From positions 1 to 39,739 of the forward strand of contig CALCCF010000004.1 of assembly GCA_937899905.1 (NCBI GenBank): a stretch of DNA of 39,739 bases, in the 5' to 3' direction. Under the pieces are notes generated by a model. It did not search any database and had not been told where the DNA came from. It saw only the letters and a list, made by a program, of their open reading frames with translations. Position 1 is the first letter of the stretch. Every line of letters starts with the position of its first letter. The translations under genes and the position numbers were made by a program. The DNA is from an uncultured Phycisphaeraceae bacterium. GTDB lineage: Bacteria > Planctomycetota > Phycisphaerae > Phycisphaerales > UBA1924. Shown here one piece after another: positions 3,628-33,919 of the stretch.

Positions 3628-5190
3628 TTAGTCGAATCGAAGCGCCTTCACCGGGTCCATCCACGCTGCGCGTGCCGCGGGCACCAACGCCCCCACCACG
3701 CTGGCGACGATGCCGCCCGTGATGATCACCGCGAACTTGAACCCATCCAGGTCCGTCGGGATCGTCGTGAAGTAATACACGTTCGGATCCCACACCTGCA
3801 CGTTGAGCGCTGTGCCCAGCCACTCGTGGATCGGGTTGATGTTCGTGACGACCACCGCCGCCAGCGCCGCCCCGAGCAGGCTGCCCACGATGCCGATCGC
3901 CAGGCCGTAGCCCACCCACACCGCGGCCACGCCCGTGCCCGAGGCGCCGATCGCACGCAGCACACCGATGTCCCGCGTCTTCTCGCTCACCATCGCCCAG
4001 AAGATCGCCAGCACCAGGAACACGCTCGTCAGGCTGACCACGCCGAAGATGAACAGGACGAGTGTCGTCTCCTTCTGCACCGCGCCGATGAACATCGCGT
4101 TGCGCTGCTCATACGTCATGATCGCGATCGATCGCGTGCTCGGCACCGCACCTGGGTGCGCCTGGGCGAACTCGGCGTACACGGCCTTGGCCGCTTCTTC
4201 CAGCTGCACGGTGTCCACGCCCTCGGCCGCGCGCACGAGCACGTCGGTCACGCGCGCGGGCGCCTCGCCGACGATCGTCGGGGCCGCCGGACGCTCGACG
4301 CCGTCGGGGCCGACCTCGAACGCGAAGGGATTGCTCGACGGATCGACGCGCTGCGCAGCGCCCATCTGCAGGAGGTCCTGCAGCGCGTCCAGCGGCACGA
4401 GCGCGATGCGCGAGTCGTACGCGTAGTTGCCCGTGGCCAGCTCGTTGGCGATCGGGAACTCGACGGTCCGCAGATCGAGCGCGCCGGTGCCCTGCTGGCC
4501 CAGCGGCAGCACGGTCAAGCGCACGTTGCGCTGCGGCAGGAACGAGCGATCGACACGCAACCCGCCGCTGGCCAGCCGCGTCTCCATGAACTGCGGGACG
4601 TAGTAATTGCCCGGCACGATGCGCCAGTTCCACCCCGTCGCCGCGATGCCCGTGACCATCGCCGCCTCGCCCTCGGGCGTGCGCAGCGTCTGCCCCTCGC
4701 GCAGCCACACCTCGAGCACCGGGTGGTCCTCGGCGGCGAGCCGCGGGTCGAATGGCACCGGGTCGCCGTTCTCGTCGACAAGCGGCTGCTCGCCATCCAT
4801 CTCCATTGGCCGCCAATACAGGCTCTGCCCGTACACCGTCGCCTCCGCGTAGCTCGCGGGCTCGATGCCCAGCAGCTGCACGCTCACCGGGCGATCGTCG
4901 GGCATGCCAAGGATCGCCAGCGTCTCGATCATGGGCGTGGCGTGCGCGATCGCCGGGTCGGCCTCCAGCCGCTCGACAAGATCCTCGTAGTGGCCGAAGC
5001 CCACGTGCTCCCACGTGATACGAAGATCGCCGTCGGTCTTCCGGCCCTCGTCGACCAGCATCGTGAGGAAGCCGCCCATGACCGACCACACGATGAGTTC
5101 GGTCGCGACGCTCAGCGTCACCGCCAGCGCGGCCAAGAGGGGGATGGCCTTGGTCGTCAGGTACTTCCGGGACAGCACGGCGGCGTACAT
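3628..5190 (-). CDS. FtsX/LolC-E family ABC transporter permease
   Basis: The 520-residue protein starts at ATG 5190 (MYAAVLSRKYL). A longer upstream frame exists but overlaps the divergent gene and has no family resemblance. The MacB/FtsX layout is clear: a membrane helix at about residues 14-36, a large extracytoplasmic domain of about 330 residues, then three helices in the C-terminal 150 residues, including the conserved SEKTRDIGVLRAIGAS coupling segment. The protein ends with a PAARAAWMDPVKALRFD tail typical of LolC/LolE. Such permeases work with a LolD-type ATPase to move lipoproteins or other substrates out of the inner membrane. No ATPase gene is adjacent, so it must be encoded elsewhere. 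The exact substrate cannot be read from the sequence. Confidence 0.88.
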   Translation of the reverse strand: MYAAVLSRKYLTTKAIPLLAALAVTLSVATELIVWSVMGGFLTMLVDEGRKTDGDLRITWEHVGFGHYEDLVERLEADPAIAHATPMIETLAILGMPDDRPVSVQLLGIEPASYAEATVYGQSLYWRPMEMDGEQPLVDENGDPVPFDPRLAAEDHPVLEVWLREGQTLRTPEGEAAMVTGIAATGWNWRIVPGNYYVPQFMETRLASGGLRVDRSFLPQRNVRLTVLPLGQQGTGALDLRTVEFPIANELATGNYAYDSRIALVPLDALQDLLQMGAAQRVDPSSNPFAFEVGPDGVERPAAPTIVGEAPARVTDVLVRAAEGVDTVQLEEAAKAVYAEFAQAHPGAVPSTRSIAIMTYEQRNAMFIGAVQKETTLVLFIFGVVSLTSVFLVLAIFWAMVSEKTRDIGVLRAIGASGTGVAAVWVGYGLAIGIVGSLLGAALAAVVVTNINPIHEWLGTALNVQVWDPNVYYFTTIPTDLDGFKFAVIITGGIVASVVGALVPAARAAWMDPVKALRFD

Positions 5191-5264
5191 ATGAGGCAGT
5201 GTAGAAGCCCCCAGGGGCCCGGTAACCCGTAACCGTCGCCACGGCTCGGGGGTATCGTGCCTCC

Positions 5265-7289
5265 ATGAAGATGTTGACCACACCGCCGACCACGCCAGCG
5301 CACGCGTGCCTGGCCGCCTCGATACTCGTGGCCTGCGCCGGGCTCGCCGCCTGCACGTCCACGCAAGAACAGGACGACGCCCAGCCGCCGCAGGCCAGCC
5401 AGCCGCCGCGGGCCGTCCTGACCGATACGCCCACCGCCTCGACGTTCACCGCCAACACCGCTCGCCCGGCCGCCGCGTTGATCGACCGGTTCGAGATCGG
5501 CCGCAGCGCCGGGGGCAAGCCCATCTACGTCTACCGCGTCAGCGGCAACGGCGGCGAGGCGGACTCTAAGCCGGGCCTGCTCATCGTTGCGGGCCTCGAC
5601 GCCCGGCACACCGCAGGGCCGACGATCGCGCGGGCGCTGGTCGACCGCCTCGAGGGCAACGCCGCGCTCGAACATTCGACGCTCTACGTCGTTGCGCACG
5701 CCAACCCCGACGCCGCGGGCCGCGATGACTCCACCATGCAGACGCCCGGCGGCACACGCACGCCCGAGGACGCCGACCGCGACGGCCGCATCGATGAAGA
5801 CGGCCCCATAGACCTCAACGGCGACGGCTTCGTCACCATGATGCGTGTGGCCGATCCGCCGGCCAAGTACGGCCTCTCGCTCACGCACATCGTCGATCCG
5901 GACAACCCAAGGCTCATGCGTCGCGCGGACACGAGCAAGGGCGAGATCGCCACGCACGCCATGGTCACCGAGTCGATGGACGCCGACGGTGATGGACAGA
6001 TGGCCGAGGACGGCCTCGGCGGCGTCGACCTCAACCACAACTTCCCGTACCGCTGGCCCGAGTTCGCCACCGGCAACGGCATCTATCCGCTCAGCGAGGC
6101 CGAGAGCATGGCCCTGGCGACGTGGCTCCTGGGCCGCCCCAACATCCACGCCGCGATCGTGTATGGTCCGCACGACACGATCGTCAACGTGCCTGAAGCC
6201 GGCCGCTTCGACCAGACCAACCGCGTGCCCACCGGCATTGAGTCGGGCGACAAGCCGCTGATGGATCGGCTCAGCGAGATGTACAAGGACACGACTGGCC
6301 TGAGCAGCGCGAGCCGCGTGGGCAAAGACGGCTCGTTCGTGGGCTGGAGTTACGCCCACCTCGGCCTGGTCACCATCGCGAGCCCCGCCTGGCAGCGTCC
6401 CGAGCCTCCGAAGGAAGAGGACGAGGAAGAAGGCAACGGTGACGCGAACGAAGCCGCCGGTGCCGAGATGGCCGACCAGCAAGACGATGCTCCGGCCTTC
6501 GTCATGATCGGCGACTTCCGACTCGAGCTCACCCAGGAGGGCATCCAGGCCGCGATGGCCGAGATGGAGAGCCTCAGCCCGCAAGAGCAGGCCGCCCGCA
6601 TGGAGATGTTCCAGGCCCTGCCCGCCGCGACGCAGCAGCGCGTCATGGCCATCGCCCAGGGCGCACCCGACCCGATGGCGGCCGAAGCCGAGGCGGCGCC
6701 CGAGCCCGCACGCCGTTCGCGACGCGGCGGCTCAGGCCAGTCCGACGACGCCAAGTGGCTCGCCTACGCAGACGAAGTCGGGAGTGGCTATGTCGACTGG
6801 CAGACCTTCGACCACCCGCAGCTCGGCGAGGTCGAGATCGGCGGCTTCGTCCCCGGCTTCAAGCTCAACGCACCCGCCGACGCCATCGACGGCATCGTCG
6901 ATGCCCAGGCCGACTTCATCGCCGACGTGCTCGGCATGATGCCCCGCATCGAGGTCGAGCCACCGGTCGTCGAGCGCGTCGGCACCGGCGTCTGGCGCAT
7001 CAGCGTCGAGGCGCGCAACGACGGGGAGATGCCCACACGCACGGCCATGGGCGTTAAGGCCCGCCGGCTCGTGCCCTTCGTCATGGCGATCGACGTCGAT
7101 CAGGACCGCCTTCTCGGCGGTTCGAAGATCGTCCGCGCCAACAGCATGGCCCCCGGTGGCGTGATGCGGGCCGAGTGGCTCGTGCTCGGCGACGCGGGCA
7201 GCACCGTGCTCGTGCAGTTCCGCACCGAGGAGTACGGCACCACAGACATCGAGATCGAACTCGCCCAAACTTCGGCGGGAGGCAACTGA
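5265..7289 (+). CDS. M14 carboxypeptidase-like lipoprotein, catalytically degenerate
   Basis: The 674-residue protein has a lipoprotein signal with the lipobox LAAC (Cys30), so it is probably membrane-anchored outside the cytoplasm. Residues about 70-400 follow the M14 zinc-carboxypeptidase fold and align with the downstream paralogue. The key positions are lost: the HxxE zinc motif is replaced by LDARHTAG, DLNRNW has become DLNHNF, the third ligand His (SYHN in the partner) is VYGP, and the catalytic Glu (FTNELW) is IASPAW. A charged, low-complexity linker follows (about 380-500). The C-terminal domain resembles the partner's C-terminal domain. Two DxDxDG-type loops (DADRDGRIDED, DADGDGQMAED) suggest calcium binding. 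It probably binds but does not cut peptides. The gene ends one base before the next start. Confidence 0.85.
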   Translation: MKMLTTPPTTPAHACLAASILVACAGLAACTSTQEQDDAQPPQASQPPRAVLTDTPTASTFTANTARPAAALIDRFEIGRSAGGKPIYVYRVSGNGGEADSKPGLLIVAGLDARHTAGPTIARALVDRLEGNAALEHSTLYVVAHANPDAAGRDDSTMQTPGGTRTPEDADRDGRIDEDGPIDLNGDGFVTMMRVADPPAKYGLSLTHIVDPDNPRLMRRADTSKGEIATHAMVTESMDADGDGQMAEDGLGGVDLNHNFPYRWPEFATGNGIYPLSEAESMALATWLLGRPNIHAAIVYGPHDTIVNVPEAGRFDQTNRVPTGIESGDKPLMDRLSEMYKDTTGLSSASRVGKDGSFVGWSYAHLGLVTIASPAWQRPEPPKEEDEEEGNGDANEAAGAEMADQQDDAPAFVMIGDFRLELTQEGIQAAMAEMESLSPQEQAARMEMFQALPAATQQRVMAIAQGAPDPMAAEAEAAPEPARRSRRGGSGQSDDAKWLAYADEVGSGYVDWQTFDHPQLGEVEIGGFVPGFKLNAPADAIDGIVDAQADFIADVLGMMPRIEVEPPVVERVGTGVWRISVEARNDGEMPTRTAMGVKARRLVPFVMAIDVDQDRLLGGSKIVRANSMAPGGVMRAEWLVLGDAGSTVLVQFRTEEYGTTDIEIELAQTSAGGN

Positions 7290-23762: not shown

Positions 23763-24776
23763 ATGGACGTCCTTGACCAAAGCGAGGTTGATGCCCTTCT
23801 CGCGGCGGTAGGCACCGGCGAGGTCGAGGAAGAAGCGACCGAGGCGCAGGTCTTCAGCCGCCACCGCCGGGACTTCGACCAGGTCGAGATCCGCGATTAC
23901 GACTTCAAGCGGCCCGAGCGCGTCTCGAAGGACCAGATGCGGTCGCTCCAGACGCTCCACGAGCAGTTCTCACGGAACTTTGGCGCGTCGTTATCGGGCT
24001 TTCTGCGCACGATCGTCGAGGTCAAGGTCGCCACGTGCGAGCAGATGACGTATGGCGAGTTCATCAGCGCGCTGCCCAACCCCACGAGCTTCAACCTGAT
24101 CGAGTCCGACGAGCTGGCTGGCCAGATGTGCATGGAGCTCAGCCCGCTTATCATCTACCCTATCATCGACCGACTCTTGGGCGGCACGAGCCAGGATCTG
24201 TTCATCCCCCAGCGGCCCATGACGCAGATCGAGAGCCGCCTGATCAGCAACGTGACCAATCGCGGTCTCGAGGCCCTCAGCGAGGCCTGGGCGGGCGTGA
24301 AGGAGATGGCGTTTTCCATCGGCTCGACCGAGAGCAACCCGCAGCTGGTCCAGATCGTGCCGCCCAACGAGGTGGTGGTGGTCATCGGCTTCGAGGTCAA
24401 GATGTCCAACCGCGCGGGCACGATGAGCCTGTGCATCCCATACAACGTCATCGAGCCGGTGATGGAGGCCGTCAGCGCCCAGAACTGGTTCTCCTCGGGC
24501 TCGGTCGGCCGAGATCCGAGCTATGAGAACCGCCTCGGGGGCTCGCTGGCCGCCGCGGGCGTGCCGGTCTCGGGCGTGCTGGCCCGCACGACTATCAGCC
24601 TGCGTGATCTTGCCAACATGGCCCCAGGCGATCTGATCATGACCGAGACCCCGGTGACCAAGCCGATGGTCCTGTGCATCGGCGGCGAGCACAAGTTCCT
24701 GGCGCACATCGGGCAGCACCGCAACAAACGAGCCCTAAGGGTCATCCGTTCGGTGACCCCCACCGATCGCTTCTAG
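23763..24776 (+). CDS. fliM: Flagellar motor switch protein FliM
   Basis: FliM forms the middle of the flagellar C-ring and binds phospho-CheY. The N-terminus, MDVLDQSEVDALLAAV, is the standard FliM start with its CheY-binding type segment. The middle domain follows (residues about 45-230, with KDQMRSLQTLHEQFSRNF and the NPTSFNLI region). The C-terminal SpoA domain (about 260-330) ends in FLAHIGQHRNKRALRV. The 337-residue length is normal. GGGAG precedes ATG 23763. The gene stands alone: dsbD is divergent and the nusA operon follows with its own promoter, so no other flagellar gene is in the window. Confidence 0.93.
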   Translation: MDVLDQSEVDALLAAVGTGEVEEEATEAQVFSRHRRDFDQVEIRDYDFKRPERVSKDQMRSLQTLHEQFSRNFGASLSGFLRTIVEVKVATCEQMTYGEFISALPNPTSFNLIESDELAGQMCMELSPLIIYPIIDRLLGGTSQDLFIPQRPMTQIESRLISNVTNRGLEALSEAWAGVKEMAFSIGSTESNPQLVQIVPPNEVVVVIGFEVKMSNRAGTMSLCIPYNVIEPVMEAVSAQNWFSSGSVGRDPSYENRLGGSLAAAGVPVSGVLARTTISLRDLANMAPGDLIMTETPVTKPMVLCIGGEHKFLAHIGQHRNKRALRVIRSVTPTDRF

Positions 24777-24798
24777 GTGCCCGCGTCCACATCAGGCA

Positions 24799-24828
24799 TT
24801 GACTCTCTCGGTCGCGATCCGCTATCAT
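24799..24828 (+). promoter_or_regulatory. Sigma70-type promoter for the nusA-infB operon
   Basis: TTGACT (24799-24804) and TATCAT (24823-24828) are separated by 18 bases. This is the best promoter match seen in the window. The start would be near 24835. Confidence 0.65.
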
Positions 24829-25055
24829 CGTGTTGCGATGAGCCACGCCTGGACCCATCCGAACGGCGACCCGACGCGATCGACGCGTGTGGGCGTGCGT
24901 GCGGCGGGGTCTTGGGCCTGCAAGGGTTGCTGCCGATGATGTGAGGTTTCGGCACAATCGAGCGGCCAACGGCGAGCGGCGGGATGCCCTCGGCGAGCGG
25001 GTAGTGGCCGGGTCACGAGCGCATGAGGCGTCTTGTGGCCCGGGTTGTTGTTGTC

Positions 25056-25073
25056 GGGTCGAGGTTTCGACCC
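25056..25073 (+). promoter_or_regulatory. Hairpin in the nusA leader
   Basis: GGGTCGA (25056-25062) and TCGACCC (25067-25073) form a perfect 7-bp stem with a GGTT loop, 34 bases before the nusA start. No T-run follows, so it is not a terminator on its own. It may act in the self-control often seen in nusA leaders. Confidence 0.45.
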
Positions 25074-25107
25074 AGCACGCCATGCACGGCGTTGGAGGAT
25101 GCGGACG

Positions 25108-26568
<1,461 letters not shown>

Positions 26569-26634
26569 GAGAGTGCAGAGTGACGCCCTTGGGTGGCCTC
26601 GCGATGGTGCGGGCCCTGGCGCATGGAGTGACGT

Positions 26635-29442
<2,808 letters not shown>

Positions 29443-29448
29443 GAGAGC

Positions 29449-29547
29449 GTTGAAGTGACGGAGCGATTGCGCGACGAAGCGCTCCCGAACCGCCGCAATC
29501 ACGACCCCCTTCGTCGCTTCGTGATCGCGATACCGCGTCACTTCAGC
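29449..29547 (+). promoter_or_regulatory. Long inverted repeat between infB and ylxP
   Basis: GTTGAAGTGACG (29449-29460) pairs with CGTCACTTCAGC (29536-29547) at 11 of 12 positions. The enclosed 75 bases contain further partly complementary GACGAAGCG/CGCTTCGT segments. The 3' arm ends two bases before the ylxP ATG at 29550 and would cover its ribosome-binding region. Confidence 0.55.
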
Positions 29548-29549
29548 AC

Positions 29550-29951
29550 ATGGTCATTGGAGTCCTCCAGTTTGAGCTTCTTGTACCCGGCGCCGAGTCT
29601 TTGAAAGACAAGCGTGCCGTGGTTCGCAGCGTTCGGGACAAGCTCAGCCGCGAGCTGCGCATCAGCATCGCCGAGGTTGGCGCGCACGACAACCTCTCGG
29701 TCGCCATGATGGGTGCGGCGATCGTGGCGAAAGATGGGCCGCGGGCCCACGAGCTGCTCGATCGCACATGGAATCGCCTAACCGAGCTGCGTGATGGTCA
29801 GATCGGCAACGTGCGGCGAGAGATCATCGTGCCCAGCCGCGAGGACTTGGCCGAGCCGGTGACTGGGCCGGACGAGGGTGATATCGCGGCCGAGATGCTC
29901 GCGCACTTTGCCCATAACGACGAACACCACGCAGAGGATCAGACGTCGTGA
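29550..29951 (+). CDS. ylxP: DUF503 (YlxP-like) protein
   Basis: A 133-residue protein whose first 95 residues match the DUF503/YlxP family: MVIGVLQFELLVPGAESLKD, then KRAVVRSVRDKL and the SIAEVGAHDNLSVA strand. The C-terminal 40 residues are acidic and variable. The family is commonly encoded between infB and rbfA, as here, and is thought to assist ribosome-related functions, but no reaction is established. ATG 29550 follows the infB stop by 107 bases, which are filled by an inverted repeat. The stop overlaps the rbfA start as GTGA. I see no obvious ribosome site, since the 3' arm of the inverted repeat occupies that position. Confidence 0.88.
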   Translation: MVIGVLQFELLVPGAESLKDKRAVVRSVRDKLSRELRISIAEVGAHDNLSVAMMGAAIVAKDGPRAHELLDRTWNRLTELRDGQIGNVRREIIVPSREDLAEPVTGPDEGDIAAEMLAHFAHNDEHHAEDQTS

Positions 29952-30346
29952 GCACGAAGACCGAGCGACTGGCTTCCTCGATCGAGAAGAGCGTGCAGCA
30001 GGTGCTCGCACGAGGGTTGCAAGACCCGCGCGTGCGAGGGCTGATCACGGTCACCAAGGTCGACATCACGCCCGACTCGAAGCAGGCCACCATCGGCATC
30101 TCCGTGCTGCCGCAGGAGCACCAGGCGCTCACCGTGCATGGGCTGCGCAGCGCGGCACGGCACATCCGGCGCGAGGTCGGCGACCTGATCCGCACGCGGA
30201 CCATGCCCGAGCTCCGCTTCGTCGAGGACGGAAGCCTCAAGAAGCAGGCCGAGGTGCTCGGCGAGCTCGCGAAGGTGCGCGAGGAGATGGACGCGAAGCC
30301 CGAAGCGGCATCTGATGACGCCGACGCTGATCGGGGCGAGCCGTGA
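29948..30346 (+). CDS. rbfA: Ribosome-binding factor A
   Basis: RbfA helps mature the 30S subunit by binding near 16S rRNA helix 1. The 132-residue protein follows the family: RLASSIEKSVQQVLARGLQDPRV at the start, the KH-like core with VTKVDITPDSKQATIGISVL, and the RSAARHIRREVGDLIRTRTMPELRFVED end. An acidic tail of about 25 residues is variable. GTG 29948 overlaps the ylxP stop by four bases. Its own stop overlaps the next GTG start in the same way, so the three genes are translationally coupled. Confidence 0.94.
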   Translation: MSTKTERLASSIEKSVQQVLARGLQDPRVRGLITVTKVDITPDSKQATIGISVLPQEHQALTVHGLRSAARHIRREVGDLIRTRTMPELRFVEDGSLKKQAEVLGELAKVREEMDAKPEAASDDADADRGEP

Positions 30347-30984
30347 ACTCGCCGATCGATCATCCCGTGGCCGAGGCCAGGCGCACGCTCGAGGCGTGGC
30401 TCGAGGGTGTGCCGGCTGCGCCGCCTCTTGAACCCGCGGCCTTACTGCCCGGCTCGCCCGATGCGGCAACGGCCGAGTTCGTGTTCGCGCTGCTCGTGTG
30501 GGAGGCCGGCGAGCCCAAGGCTGCGTCGGCCGCACGCCGGCTCGCCGAGCAATTCGTGGACCTCAACGAGCTCCGAGTCGCCTTGGTTGATGAGATCGAG
30601 CAGGCGATCGGCCTGGACGACTCGCATGCGACCGAACGGGCCGACCTCATCGCCACCGCGCTCATGTGCGTGTTCGATGCCGAGGATGACGTGAGCATCG
30701 ATCGTGTCGCGCGAGCCGGCACCTTGGAAGTACGGACGTTCCTCGAGGACATCCCGGGACTGCCGGCGTTCGTCATCGATCGCGTCATGCTGCTGGCAAT
30801 TGGCGAGCCGCGGATCCCGGTCGACGATCGGCTGCGGAGCGTATTAGCGGAGAAGGGCATCGTCGGCCCCGAGACGCCCGACACCGACGCGGCCGACCTG
30901 CTCACCCGGGTCTGCCAGCCCGAGGACGCGCGGGACGCGTACGCCCGGCTCGAGGCGGCCGCGGGCCGGCTGGCCCGGGTGTAG
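30343..30984 (+). CDS. Degenerate endonuclease III-like (HhH-GPD) protein
   Basis: A 213-residue protein in the usual truB position after rbfA, with GTG 30343 overlapping the rbfA stop. Its helical layout follows the endonuclease III family: EFVFALLVWEAGEPKAASAA (residues about 45-64), then NELRVALVDEI, the helix-hairpin-helix EDIPGLPAFVIDRVML (135-150) and PRIPVDDRLRSVLAEKGIV (156-174). The catalytic Lys expected in LPGVGRK is Phe143. The catalytic Asp is present as Asp161. The four-Cys iron-sulfur cluster after the domain is missing. It is therefore unlikely to cut DNA as a glycosylase/lyase. A structural or RNA/DNA-binding role linked to ribosome assembly or transcription is an inference from its place in the operon. 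Confidence 0.7.
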   Translation: MNSPIDHPVAEARRTLEAWLEGVPAAPPLEPAALLPGSPDAATAEFVFALLVWEAGEPKAASAARRLAEQFVDLNELRVALVDEIEQAIGLDDSHATERADLIATALMCVFDAEDDVSIDRVARAGTLEVRTFLEDIPGLPAFVIDRVMLLAIGEPRIPVDDRLRSVLAEKGIVGPETPDTDAADLLTRVCQPEDARDAYARLEAAAGRLARV

Positions 30985-31003
30985 GACACACGAACACCGA
31001 CAC

Positions 31004-31009
31004 TACAAT
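31004..31009 (+). promoter_or_regulatory. Possible -10 element before yebC
   Basis: TACAAT lies 60 bases before the yebC start. No good -35 box is found 16-18 bases upstream, so the call is weak. Confidence 0.3.
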
Positions 31010-31068
31010 GCCACCGCGGGCCGGGCTTCGATCCTTGGCCGGAGCATCGAGGGCACAGGGAGCACGAC

Positions 31069-31830
31069 GTGGCCGGACACAGCAAGTGGGCGAACATCCG
31101 TCACCGCAAGGAGCGGCAGGACAAGAAGAAGGGCAAGATCTGGAGCAAGTGCTCCAAGGCCATCATGGCTGCCGCACGTTCGGGCGGGGGCGACCCCGAG
31201 ACCAACCTCACGCTGCGCTACGCCATCGACGAGGCCCGCTACGCCAACATGCCCAAGGACACGATCCAGCGGGCCATCGACAAGGGCAGCGGCGCCGCCG
31301 ACGGCGCGGGCTTCGAAGAGAACGCCTACGAGGGCTACGGCCCCGGCGGTGTCGCGATCATCGTCGACGCACTGACCGACAACAAGACGCGCACGGTGAA
31401 CGACCTGCGTTTCATCTTCAGTAAGGCTGGCGGCACGCTGGGCAACGCCGGCAGTGTGGCGTTCATGTTCGAGACCAAGGGCCGCATCTTCATCGAGGCC
31501 GACAAGACCACCGAAGAGCAGCTCAAGGAGGTCGCGCTCGAAGCAGGGGCCGAAGACATCGAGGCTCCGGAAGGCGAAGGCGACGACGCGGGCATGTGGG
31601 TCATCACGACCGAGCGCACCGACTACCACACGGTGCGGCAGGCCCTGGAGAAGGCCGAGATCGAGGTCAGCGAGGGCGGTATCGACAAGATTCCCAACGT
31701 CATCGCCAAGCCCACGCCCGAAGAAGCCACCAAGCTCATGAACCTCATCGACGCGATCGAGGACAACGAGGACGTGCAGAAGGTCTACCACAACCTCGAC
31801 GAGGACATGGCGGCGGAGGCCGAGGGATAG
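31069..31830 (+). CDS. yebC: YebC/PmpR family regulatory or translation-associated protein
   Basis: A 253-residue protein with the full family pattern: MAGHSKWANIRHRKERQD at the start, then the KAIMAAARSGGGDPETNLTLR segment, GYGPGGVAIIVDALTDNKTRT, and the SKAGGTLGNAGSVAFMFETKG motif. The start is GTG 31069, with GGGAG eight bases upstream. Members have been described as DNA-binding regulators and, more recently, as factors that relieve ribosome stalling; sequence alone does not choose. It is separated from the rbfA run by 84 bases with a possible promoter. A hairpin terminator follows. Confidence 0.94.
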   Translation: MAGHSKWANIRHRKERQDKKKGKIWSKCSKAIMAAARSGGGDPETNLTLRYAIDEARYANMPKDTIQRAIDKGSGAADGAGFEENAYEGYGPGGVAIIVDALTDNKTRTVNDLRFIFSKAGGTLGNAGSVAFMFETKGRIFIEADKTTEEQLKEVALEAGAEDIEAPEGEGDDAGMWVITTERTDYHTVRQALEKAEIEVSEGGIDKIPNVIAKPTPEEATKLMNLIDAIEDNEDVQKVYHNLDEDMAAEAEG

Positions 31831-31868
31831 GCAATGGGCATCGAGCAATAGGCGATGGAAAGAACGAG

Positions 31869-31888
31869 GCCCGGGCGCAAGCCCAGGC
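31869..31888 (+). terminator. Hairpin between yebC and the ABC transporter gene
   Basis: GCCCGGGC and GCCCAGGC flank a GCAA tetraloop and pair with one mismatch. Only TT follows, so the T-run is poor. It lies between two convergent genes and may end transcription on either strand. Confidence 0.45.
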
Positions 31889-31897
31889 TTAACACGC

Positions 31898-33919
31898 CTA
31901 GCTCACACTCGCGTCTTCTTCCAAATCCTCAACCTGCGCCTGCACCAACCCCGCGTACGCCCCACCCTTGGCCAACAGTTCCTCGTGCGTGCCGACCTCG
32001 GTGATCGCGCCCTTGTGCATGACCACGATCGCGTCGGCGTGGCGGATGGTGCTCAAACGGTGGGCGATGACGAAGGTCGTTCGCTCGCTAGTAAGCTGGG
32101 CTAAGGCGCGCTGGATGAGCTTCTCGCTGTGCGTGTCGAGGTTGCTCGTCGCCTCATCGAGGATGAGCACCTTCGGGTCGGCGAGCACGGCCCGCGCGAT
32201 CGCGATGCGTTGCTTCTGCCCGCCGCTGAGGCGCACGCCGCGCTCGCCGACGATGGTGTCGTAGCCCTCAGTCAGATCCTCGATGAACTCGTCGGCGCTC
32301 GCGATCCTCGCGGCTTCCTTGACGTCTTCTTCCGTCGCCCACCGCCGCGCGTAGGCGATGTTGTCGTAAATGCTGCCGTCGAAGAGGAAGACGTCCTGCT
32401 CGACAACACCCAGCAGCGCCCGGTAGCGATCGACGTTGATGTCGCGCAGATCGACGCCGTCGAGAAGGATCCGCCCGCGCGTCGGGTCGTAGAACCGCGC
32501 GACGAGGTTGCACATCGTCGTCTTGCCCGAGCCGCTGCGACCCACGAGCGCGACCGTCGAGCCTGCCGGCACGTCCAGGTTGATGTCCTTCAGCACGAAC
32601 TCAAGCTCTTCGCCCTCTGGATCACCATCGCCGTTCTCGTTCGACTTCGGATACGCGAACCACACGCCCTCGATGCTCATCCGGCCGTGAACTGCCGCGG
32701 GCATCGCCGTCGCACCATCGCGGGTCTCGGCGAACTCCATCGGCTCCTCGAGCAGATCGAGCGAGCGATCGAGGCCCGAGAGCGCGTTCTGGATCTGCGT
32801 CGCGCTCGCCGCCAAGGCCTCTACAGGCCCAAGCAGGTAGAGCAGGTACACCGAGAACATCATGACATCACCGATGGTCATGCGGTCGCCCAGCACGGCC
32901 GCCCCGCCATAGAGCAGCACGCCCGCACTCGCAGCGGGGATCATCACCGCCCACACGAGCTCGACGCTCCGGCTCCACCACCACGCGCGCAGCTCCTGCC
33001 GCGCCATGAGGTGGACGCCGCCGGTAAACCTCGCCGACTCCTGCTGCTCGCGGTGAAAACCGCGGACCACGCGGGCACCGCCAAAGGCCTCGGTCGCGTG
33101 CGCGTCGATATCGCTGCGCGTCTTGCGCACGTCGCGATAGATCGGCCGGATGCGTGCAATCCAGGCGCGATGCGTGATCCACACCACCGGCAGCAGCAGC
33201 AACGCGCCCGCGAGCATCCGCCAATCGACGATGGTCATCGCCACGAGCGCGCCCAGCAGCGTGACCACCGCGCGCCACGGGTTATAGATAAGCCCGAACA
33301 GCAACTCGGCCGCCGCACCCGCGTCCTCGCGCAGGATGCTCGCCACCCCACCGCTCCGCATCGCGTGCACACGGTGCAAGGGCAGCCGGGCCGCGTGCTC
33401 GAACGTGCGCCGCCGCAGCATCGCCTGCACACGCTTGGTCAGCCGCGTCATGTGCCAGCGACCCCAGAGCCCGAATGCGACGCCCAGCGTGGCGACCAAC
33501 ATCATCGCGCCGCACAGCACCAGCAGCGCCCGCCATCGCAGCGATCGCATGCCGTCCTCATCGAGCGAGCCCAAGTGCTCGAGCGCCTCCTCGCGTTGCG
33601 GCTGCGGCAGCGACTCGGCGAGCCCGACAAGCCCCGGCTCGGTGCTCAGGATGAAGTCGAGCGCGACCTTGGTCGACAGCGGCAGCAAGAGGCCCAGGCC
33701 CGTCGCGATCGTCAGGGTGACCAGCGAGGCGACGACCGTGCCTCGGTGCCCACGCAAGAGCCCCCAGAACTCGCGCGCGAGCGTCCCAAAGCCTCGGCTG
33801 CGCCGGCCCTTCTTCGCTAGCGGGTCGTCCGAGACCTTGTCCGCCTCGCTCCGCCGCTCACGCTCTCGCTCGATGTACCGCCGGTATCGCCGGCTGCTGA
33901 CCTGCCGTTTCCTCGCCAC
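31898..33919 (-). CDS. MsbA-type ABC exporter (fused membrane and ATPase domains)
   Basis: A 673-residue half-transporter that would work as a dimer in the inner membrane. A very basic N-terminus (RKRQVSSRRYRRYIERERERR) precedes six predicted membrane helices in residues about 55-390. The ATPase domain has Walker A GRSGSGKTT (about 457-465), signature LSGGQKQR (about 563), Walker B VLILDEATSNLD and the His switch IAHRLSTI (about 618). ATG 33919 is divergent from the symporter gene. The class exports lipids, peptides or drugs; the substrate is not visible. An Asp/Glu-rich insert lies in the domain linker (ENGDGDPEGEELE). Confidence 0.92.
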   Translation of the reverse strand: MARKRQVSSRRYRRYIERERERRSEADKVSDDPLAKKGRRSRGFGTLAREFWGLLRGHRGTVVASLVTLTIATGLGLLLPLSTKVALDFILSTEPGLVGLAESLPQPQREEALEHLGSLDEDGMRSLRWRALLVLCGAMMLVATLGVAFGLWGRWHMTRLTKRVQAMLRRRTFEHAARLPLHRVHAMRSGGVASILREDAGAAAELLFGLIYNPWRAVVTLLGALVAMTIVDWRMLAGALLLLPVVWITHRAWIARIRPIYRDVRKTRSDIDAHATEAFGGARVVRGFHREQQESARFTGGVHLMARQELRAWWWSRSVELVWAVMIPAASAGVLLYGGAAVLGDRMTIGDVMMFSVYLLYLLGPVEALAASATQIQNALSGLDRSLDLLEEPMEFAETRDGATAMPAAVHGRMSIEGVWFAYPKSNENGDGDPEGEELEFVLKDINLDVPAGSTVALVGRSGSGKTTMCNLVARFYDPTRGRILLDGVDLRDINVDRYRALLGVVEQDVFLFDGSIYDNIAYARRWATEEDVKEAARIASADEFIEDLTEGYDTIVGERGVRLSGGQKQRIAIARAVLADPKVLILDEATSNLDTHSEKLIQRALAQLTSERTTFVIAHRLSTIRHADAIVVMHKGAITEVGTHEELLAKGGAYAGLVQAQVEDLEEDASVS

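Follow-up and report, generated by a model that had tools for sequence, protein, structure and literature searches.

What does a relative of a DNA-repair enzyme do among ribosome-assembly genes? This question is raised by a gene in a 39,739-nucleotide stretch of DNA from an uncultured Phycisphaeraceae bacterium of the phylum Planctomycetota (assembly GCA_937899905.1, contig CALCCF010000004.1, forward strand), the whole of which we refer to as the window. The gene (30343..30984, plus strand) encodes a protein of 213 amino acids and lies directly behind rbfA, the gene for the 30S ribosome-binding factor A. An earlier note on this DNA had described the product as a catalytically dead endonuclease III (EndoIII)-like protein of the HhH-GPD fold and had proposed that a repair fold was recruited to RNA or ribosome work. 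Our sequence, structure and neighbourhood comparisons suggest that the window protein belongs to a family of probably inactive EndoIII homologues, whose most likely role is that of an accessory factor in translation or in assembling the 30S subunit; we put the probability of this reading at about 0.65.

The fold named in the earlier note was borne out by structure prediction. An AlphaFold2 model of the window protein (44 sequences) is all helical, with a mean predicted local distance difference test score (pLDDT) of 92.9 and a predicted template modelling score (pTM) of 0.89, and its best Foldseek matches are EndoIII-1 (PDB 8a5f, E-value 6.3e-6) and EndoIII-3 (E-value 1.6e-5) of Deinococcus. 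Alignment of the model with EndoIII (PDB 1orn) by VIA-align gave a Z-score of 18.0 and a root-mean-square deviation of 2.8 Å over 191 residues with 17% identity, spanning model residues 6-213, so that the predicted structure confirms an HhH-GPD/EndoIII fold. At the level of sequence, homology to EndoIII is significant by profile and not by the single window protein, which matched no Pfam family and gave only a weak, non-significant hint of the Deinococcus glycosylase DR2438 in NCBIfam (E-value 0.012). None of the 45 members of our profile A4 had a Pfam match at 1e-3, and 28 of them matched the NCBIfam model MonDNAglycDR2438 at that threshold. A 17-row profile of relatives found Deinococcus EndoIII-1 (8a5f) with an E-value of 5.1e-8 across the HhH-GPD domain, and the phylum-wide profile did so with 2.6e-26 over profile positions 3-218. 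In a tree of 75 rows, one separating branch (support 100/97) divides seven true EndoIII, Nth or MutY rows from 68 family rows; sequences L135, L136, L173, L175 and L179 had been separated as true EndoIII by reading. In our scans no Pfam or NCBIfam model reached its cut-off on the family, which is therefore likely to go unnoticed by annotation pipelines.

Residue by residue, the window protein looks as the earlier note had described it. Alignments and a reading of the bases place Phe143 (codon 30769..30771, plus strand) at the site of the catalytic Lys of EndoIII and Asp161 (codon 30823..30825, plus strand) at that of the catalytic Asp, and the sequence contains no iron-sulfur (Fe-S) cysteine cluster. 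The argument that the enzyme is dead because its Lys is Phe nevertheless fails, since monofunctional (one-step) HhH-GPD glycosylases also lack this Lys: MutY- and AlkA-type enzymes work with the Asp alone, and the MutY of the same genome has a Tyr at the Lys site. This Asp-without-Lys pattern fits the window protein but not the family as a whole. Among 112 aligned family rows, a set picked by the DxNExR pattern described below after four rows without a motif match were dropped (L025, L083, L091 and L099), the Lys-Asp pair does not occur once. Lys stands in its column in two rows, both without the Asp, and the Asp is kept in 77; in the wide, phylum-wide part of the set it is kept in 27 of 60 rows and lost in the other 33, where N, S, T, A, E, H and further residues take its place. 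It is because of this loss among the wider relatives that we infer a dead family. The expected conservation of both sites thus held for the absence of the Lys, whereas Asp161 turned out to be no family-wide constant, and homologues with full catalytic residues were found outside the family (EndoIII sequence L136 and the genome's own Nth) and in none of its 112 rows. The GxG of the HhH hairpin reads Gly-Leu-Pro in the window protein, with Pro for the second Gly, which is present in 6/112 rows; as the genome's own Nth has an Ala there, the hairpin is no strict criterion. We read the family as pseudo-enzymes whose constrained surface appears to have shifted away from the active site. A further degenerate form is seen in family members L164 and L169, whose HhH-GPD domain is interrupted midway by a long acidic insertion.

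The signature that the family does appear to hold constant is DxNExR (D-x-N-E/D-x-R) rather than Asp161. In the window protein it reads D73-L-N75-E76-L-R78 (30559..30576, plus strand) and lies well before the active site, in and before a short helix (residues 74-79) of the AlphaFold2 model. Since the 112-row set had been chosen by this very pattern, motif counts were taken from 121 rows not selected by motif (30 from the window's own family, the 30 best of the phylum, 34 wide and 27 further rows, some genes being counted twice). Here the D is present in 118 rows, the N in 119 (the other two have His) and the R in all 121, and the motif is also found where the Asp is lost. Its invariance in the A3 alignment (44/44) is partly circular because 43 of those rows had been found with the pattern NELRVC.

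All genomes searched for the family belong to Planctomycetota, and in these it seems nearly universal. Of 100 genomes from the window's own family, 98 gave one match each in a search with the single protein; one of the two misses is a genome of 66% completeness and the other has a genus mate that carries the gene. Profile A4 (45 rows) matched 136 of 149 genomes drawn across the phylum at 1e-12, although a few of these matches may be true EndoIII, such as L179 in genome G159, which has EndoIII residues. A narrower profile matched 275/392 genomes at 1e-3, and the 39 genomes picked as weak or negative earlier all matched A4 at 1e-3, with the match in eleven of them read as true EndoIII or as a C-terminal half only. 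Relatives with a name come from Phycisphaerales and other planctomycete metagenome-assembled genomes (MAGs). Two records titled Leptolyngbya and Vicinamibacteraceae (L036 and L071) also contain the gene; these labels look wrong, as both records bear a Phycisphaerae-type operon. The ratio of nonsynonymous to synonymous substitution rates (dN/dS) of the gene is 0.20-0.50 over 10 genus pairs, so that purifying selection on it resembles that on rbfA (0.18-0.49); yebC is held tighter (0.15-0.27). Together with the presence in 98/100 genomes of the window's own family, these ratios rule out a pseudogene.

In order to relate the family to ribosome assembly, the neighbourhood of its genes carries the argument. 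The start of the window gene, a GTG by open reading frame (ORF) reading, overlaps the stop of rbfA (29948..30346, plus strand; PF02033, E-value 3.5e-25) by four bases. All of 48 named loci, several of them on cut contigs, have rbfA ahead of the family gene and on its strand, and infB, nusA and yebC are found in 44, 37 and 35, respectively; these loci were collected with a peptide pattern containing NELRVC and are hence unfit for testing that motif. In 31 of them the start picked by our script, which favours upstream starts, shares four bases with the rbfA stop. The coupling to rbfA and its conservation are therefore as the earlier note expected. It had also placed the gene where truB usually lies; truB has not been lost, however: the genome carries it on a different contig, which rules out a replacement of truB.

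Beyond these loci, we retrieved the surroundings of wide members (about 10 kb), which gave 73 loci with a match and, after exclusion of two true EndoIII loci, 71. Within about 5 kb, rbfA lies upstream in 22 of the 71 (in L190 at 3.4 kb), rpsP, the gene for bS16, lies upstream in another 22, and the two never occur together (0/71). Downstream, yebC is found in 29 loci, 15 of which are without rbfA, so that 59/71 show at least one of the three contexts on the same strand. Ten neighbour genes were scored in these loci, and not one stands on the opposite strand. In the rpsP group the order is ffh, rpsP and the family gene, partly followed by rpmE, prfA and prmC; across all 71 loci ffh was counted 22 times, prfA 15, rpmE 12 and prmC 9. 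A further rRNA-processing context occurs at L201 (4154-4831), where the family gene is immediately preceded by one for RNase III. That the same family stands after rpsP or before yebC in other planctomycete lineages strengthens the idea, put forward in the earlier note and supported here by gene neighbourhood, that a repair fold may have been recruited to ribosome work. In one wide locus, L181 (minus strand, 4769-5980), the family member adjoins a strong Volactin match (PF25216, E-value 3e-83).

How such a factor might work is suggested by its charge. The window protein has an isoelectric point (pI) of 4.35 and a net charge of -20, against pI 8.98 and +6 for the genome's own Nth. Members of the window genus (L001, L002, L003, L097 and L104) have an acidic core of pI 4.28 to 5.2 and no Lys-rich tail, and thereby differ from the medians of the other groups: in the wide relatives the core is close to neutral (median pI 6.49), and Lys/Arg make up about 30% of the tail. 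As the charge table contains a few mis-sliced rows, only medians and named rows are used here. We propose that the factor would be made together with RbfA in the window and the core lineages, and with bS16 or YebC in others, and that it might bind a pre-30S particle or a ribosome factor. The DxNExR region would then contact RbfA, a ribosomal protein or some other protein rather than naked rRNA; this is the more likely option because the window genus is strongly acidic and lacks a Lys/Arg-rich tail, and a function common to acidic and tailed forms is easier to picture as a protein contact of DxNExR than as a direct grip on nucleic acid. In the relatives, the basic tail may add an RNA contact.

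Several observations weigh against a dead enzyme in ribosome assembly. All the functional evidence is of the neighbourhood kind, and the 71 wide loci were hand-chosen from match lists and are no random sample. Twelve of them show none of the three contexts; three of the twelve (L193, L195 and L211) lie on contigs that end nearby, and in seven of the others, ten neighbouring proteins share no common theme (RNase III, Volactin and TPR, PPIase, CoA ligase, radical SAM and four without a family). An Fe-S-type Cys pattern persists in 22/60 wide rows (0/52 in the other rows), which sits oddly with a protein that does not work on DNA. Moreover, the window protein has the Asp, as do 68 of the 69 Phycisphaerae-type rows, so that the residues by themselves leave activity possible in that lineage. 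This last point is what would favour an active DNA glycosylase, monofunctional and unusual in its specificity, working with Asp161 alone and co-transcribed with ribosome genes as a housekeeping function, in particular as the nearest characterised relative, EndoIII-1 of Deinococcus, is reported to be mostly monofunctional (PMC9268735) and the MutY of the genome likewise does without the Lys. We consider it unlikely: the Asp has gone from more than half of the wide members, the second hairpin Gly has nearly disappeared, a net charge of -20 is poor for DNA binding, the contexts are translational in three different ways, and the genome already has an Nth and a MutY (named by reading). An enzyme that removes bases from RNA, an rRNA or tRNA glycosylase where the Asp is kept and a structural relic elsewhere, would suit both the near-invariant Asp of the Phycisphaerae-type rows and the ribosomal operons. 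Since we identified no other conserved catalytic residue in the family, and its constant DxNExR persists where the Asp is lost, we regard such an enzyme as very improbable.

An inactive protein may still bind DNA, and one could imagine a sensor that couples damage to translation or to the state of the nucleoid, its operon position being regulatory. Possible parallels are EndoIII-3 of Deinococcus, which lacks detectable EndoIII activity (PMC10523315) and binds damaged DNA (PMC9268735), and Mag2 of Schizosaccharomyces pombe, and the Lys-rich tails of many relatives and the Fe-S-type cysteines of some members would be in keeping with it. The window genus, however, is acidic and tailless, the hairpin glycines are eroded and the linkage found is to translation genes, which leaves a small chance for this explanation. 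The neighbourhood itself might be conserved and yet functionally neutral, with the protein's job unrelated to translation; operon order can persist, and the twelve loci outside the three contexts would then be no surprise. Yet different lineages show different translation operons, around rbfA, rpsP or yebC, and rbfA and rpsP are never combined, so that inheritance of one neighbourhood is hard to accept and we think a neutral arrangement quite improbable. An accessory factor of 30S assembly or translation remains our preferred reading.

A more specific version of this reading concerns RimM. The gene rimM follows rpsP in most bacteria, and 22 of the 71 wide loci have the family gene in that slot. 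While the RimM family PF01782 was detected in 10/10 bacterial controls (the other four controls being archaea), it was found in 0/59 planctomycete genomes, and the RimM model TIGR02273 scored above cut-off in one of 149. This doubtful case (G194), in which the gene adjoins trmD at a contig edge as judged by eye, may be foreign, and contamination of the MAG is suspected. The gene after rpsP reads as trmD in 11 of 19 rpsP loci (seven by pattern, four by eye), including that of the window's genome. No RimM model in Pfam or NCBIfam matched the window protein at an E-value of 10. RimM and RbfA are both early factors of 30S assembly, the former working on the head and the latter towards the central pseudoknot, according to a review (PMC9032327) that also calls RimM conserved in bacteria. 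RimP, scored above cut-off in 10/59 genomes and not found in that of the window, makes a less likely candidate for replacement, because nine of the ten RimP-positive genomes also have a family match at 1e-12. The RimP gene usually precedes nusA. That RimM is missing almost everywhere the family is present, and that RimP can coexist with it, suggests a takeover of RimM's task: Planctomycetota would have lost RimM, and an inactive EndoIII paralogue would do its job in building the 30S head, its gene lying behind rbfA in some lineages and taking the place of rimM after rpsP in others. We offer this joint claim tentatively and consider it, on balance, doubtful.

One bacterial family, f49, speaks against it. 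Four of its genomes (G146, G167, G185 and G219; 99-100% complete) have no match to the pseudo-EndoIII family at 1e-12, and a fifth (G203) has a match of unclassified kind at 2.8e-13. G146 is negative for PF01782; with TIGR02273, G185 stays below cut-off, and G146, G167 and G219 are not named among the matches listed for a draw equal in size to the A4 draw, the latter of which contains all four. In G146, G167 and G185, trmD comes immediately after rpsP, and rbfA is not followed by a member of the family. These near-complete genomes thus seem to lack both RimM and the pseudo-EndoIII, which leaves a perfect exchange of one for the other unsupported.

Compared with known proteins, the closest is EndoIII-1 of Deinococcus radiodurans (DR2438; PDB 4unf/8a5f; NCBIfam NF053634), the best match by both profile and Foldseek, which shares the HhH-GPD domain end to end; the window protein differs from it in lacking the Lys and the cluster, in being acidic and in carrying DxNExR. 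With EndoIII/Nth itself (PDB 1orn, 2abk) it has the fold in common across model residues 6-213 and differs in the Lys-to-Phe and hairpin Gly-to-Pro exchanges and in the absence of the Fe-S loop. S. pombe Mag2 has no known activity, and we know of no tie of either this protein or Deinococcus EndoIII-3 to ribosome genes. Mag2 has the same fold and binds abasic DNA, as the title of its PDB entry states (4b23). EndoIII-3 (PDB 4uob) is likewise a same-fold homologue, with the damaged-DNA binding described above as a difference, and its lack of detectable activity means that an inactive EndoIII is not new in itself. RimM, with which the family shares the slot after rpsP and the 30S-assembly context, has two beta-barrel domains (PMC9032327) and thus differs from the all-helical window protein. 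RbfA and YebC are operon partners from different Pfam families.

As far as could be seen, the new elements are the phylum-wide family, the DxNExR motif that marks it and its occurrence in translation operons of three kinds. Among the matches listed, open-access titles and the starts of abstracts gave no description of the family or of a loss of RimM in the phylum, and passages of PMC12283558 contain nothing relevant. Era is missing in some Planctomycetota (PMC10582724). If our reading is true, a whole bacterial phylum would build its small ribosomal subunit with a factor derived from a DNA-repair enzyme and without RimM. This would hint at how the phylum gets by in the absence of RimM and, for the majority of the 59 sampled genomes, of a recognisable RimP. 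It would also be a clear example of an enzyme fold put to new use in a structural or assembly protein, and would bring to light a widespread gene whose role can be tested.

The remaining genes around the window gene complete the picture of its operon, which runs nusA-infB-DUF503-rbfA-pseudo-EndoIII-yebC, all on the plus strand. The DUF503 (YlxP-like) gene (29550..29951; PF04456, E-value 1.7e-21) overlaps the start of rbfA by four bases, and with the equal overlap between rbfA and the pseudo-EndoIII gene three consecutive genes are coupled. Upstream lie infB for translation initiation factor IF-2 (26635..29442), an ORF named by sequence reading and not scanned against Pfam, and nusA (25099..26568), also named by reading and with an uncertain start codon, its ORF opening at 25033. 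The next gene downstream is yebC of the YebC/TACO1 family (31069..31830; PF01709, E-value 1.5e-54; PF20772, E-value 1.5e-31). A sigma-70-like promoter match, by consensus only, precedes nusA (24799..24828, plus strand); it is the sole one in 24500-32000, where 0.4 were expected from shuffles. None of five scored neighbours was found at the two true EndoIII loci excluded above. A true HhH-GPD glycosylase with Fe-S cysteines is also encoded at L135 (minus strand, 3676-5526), within a single frame of 617 amino acids that also takes in, as read by eye, an apparent C5 DNA methyltransferase.
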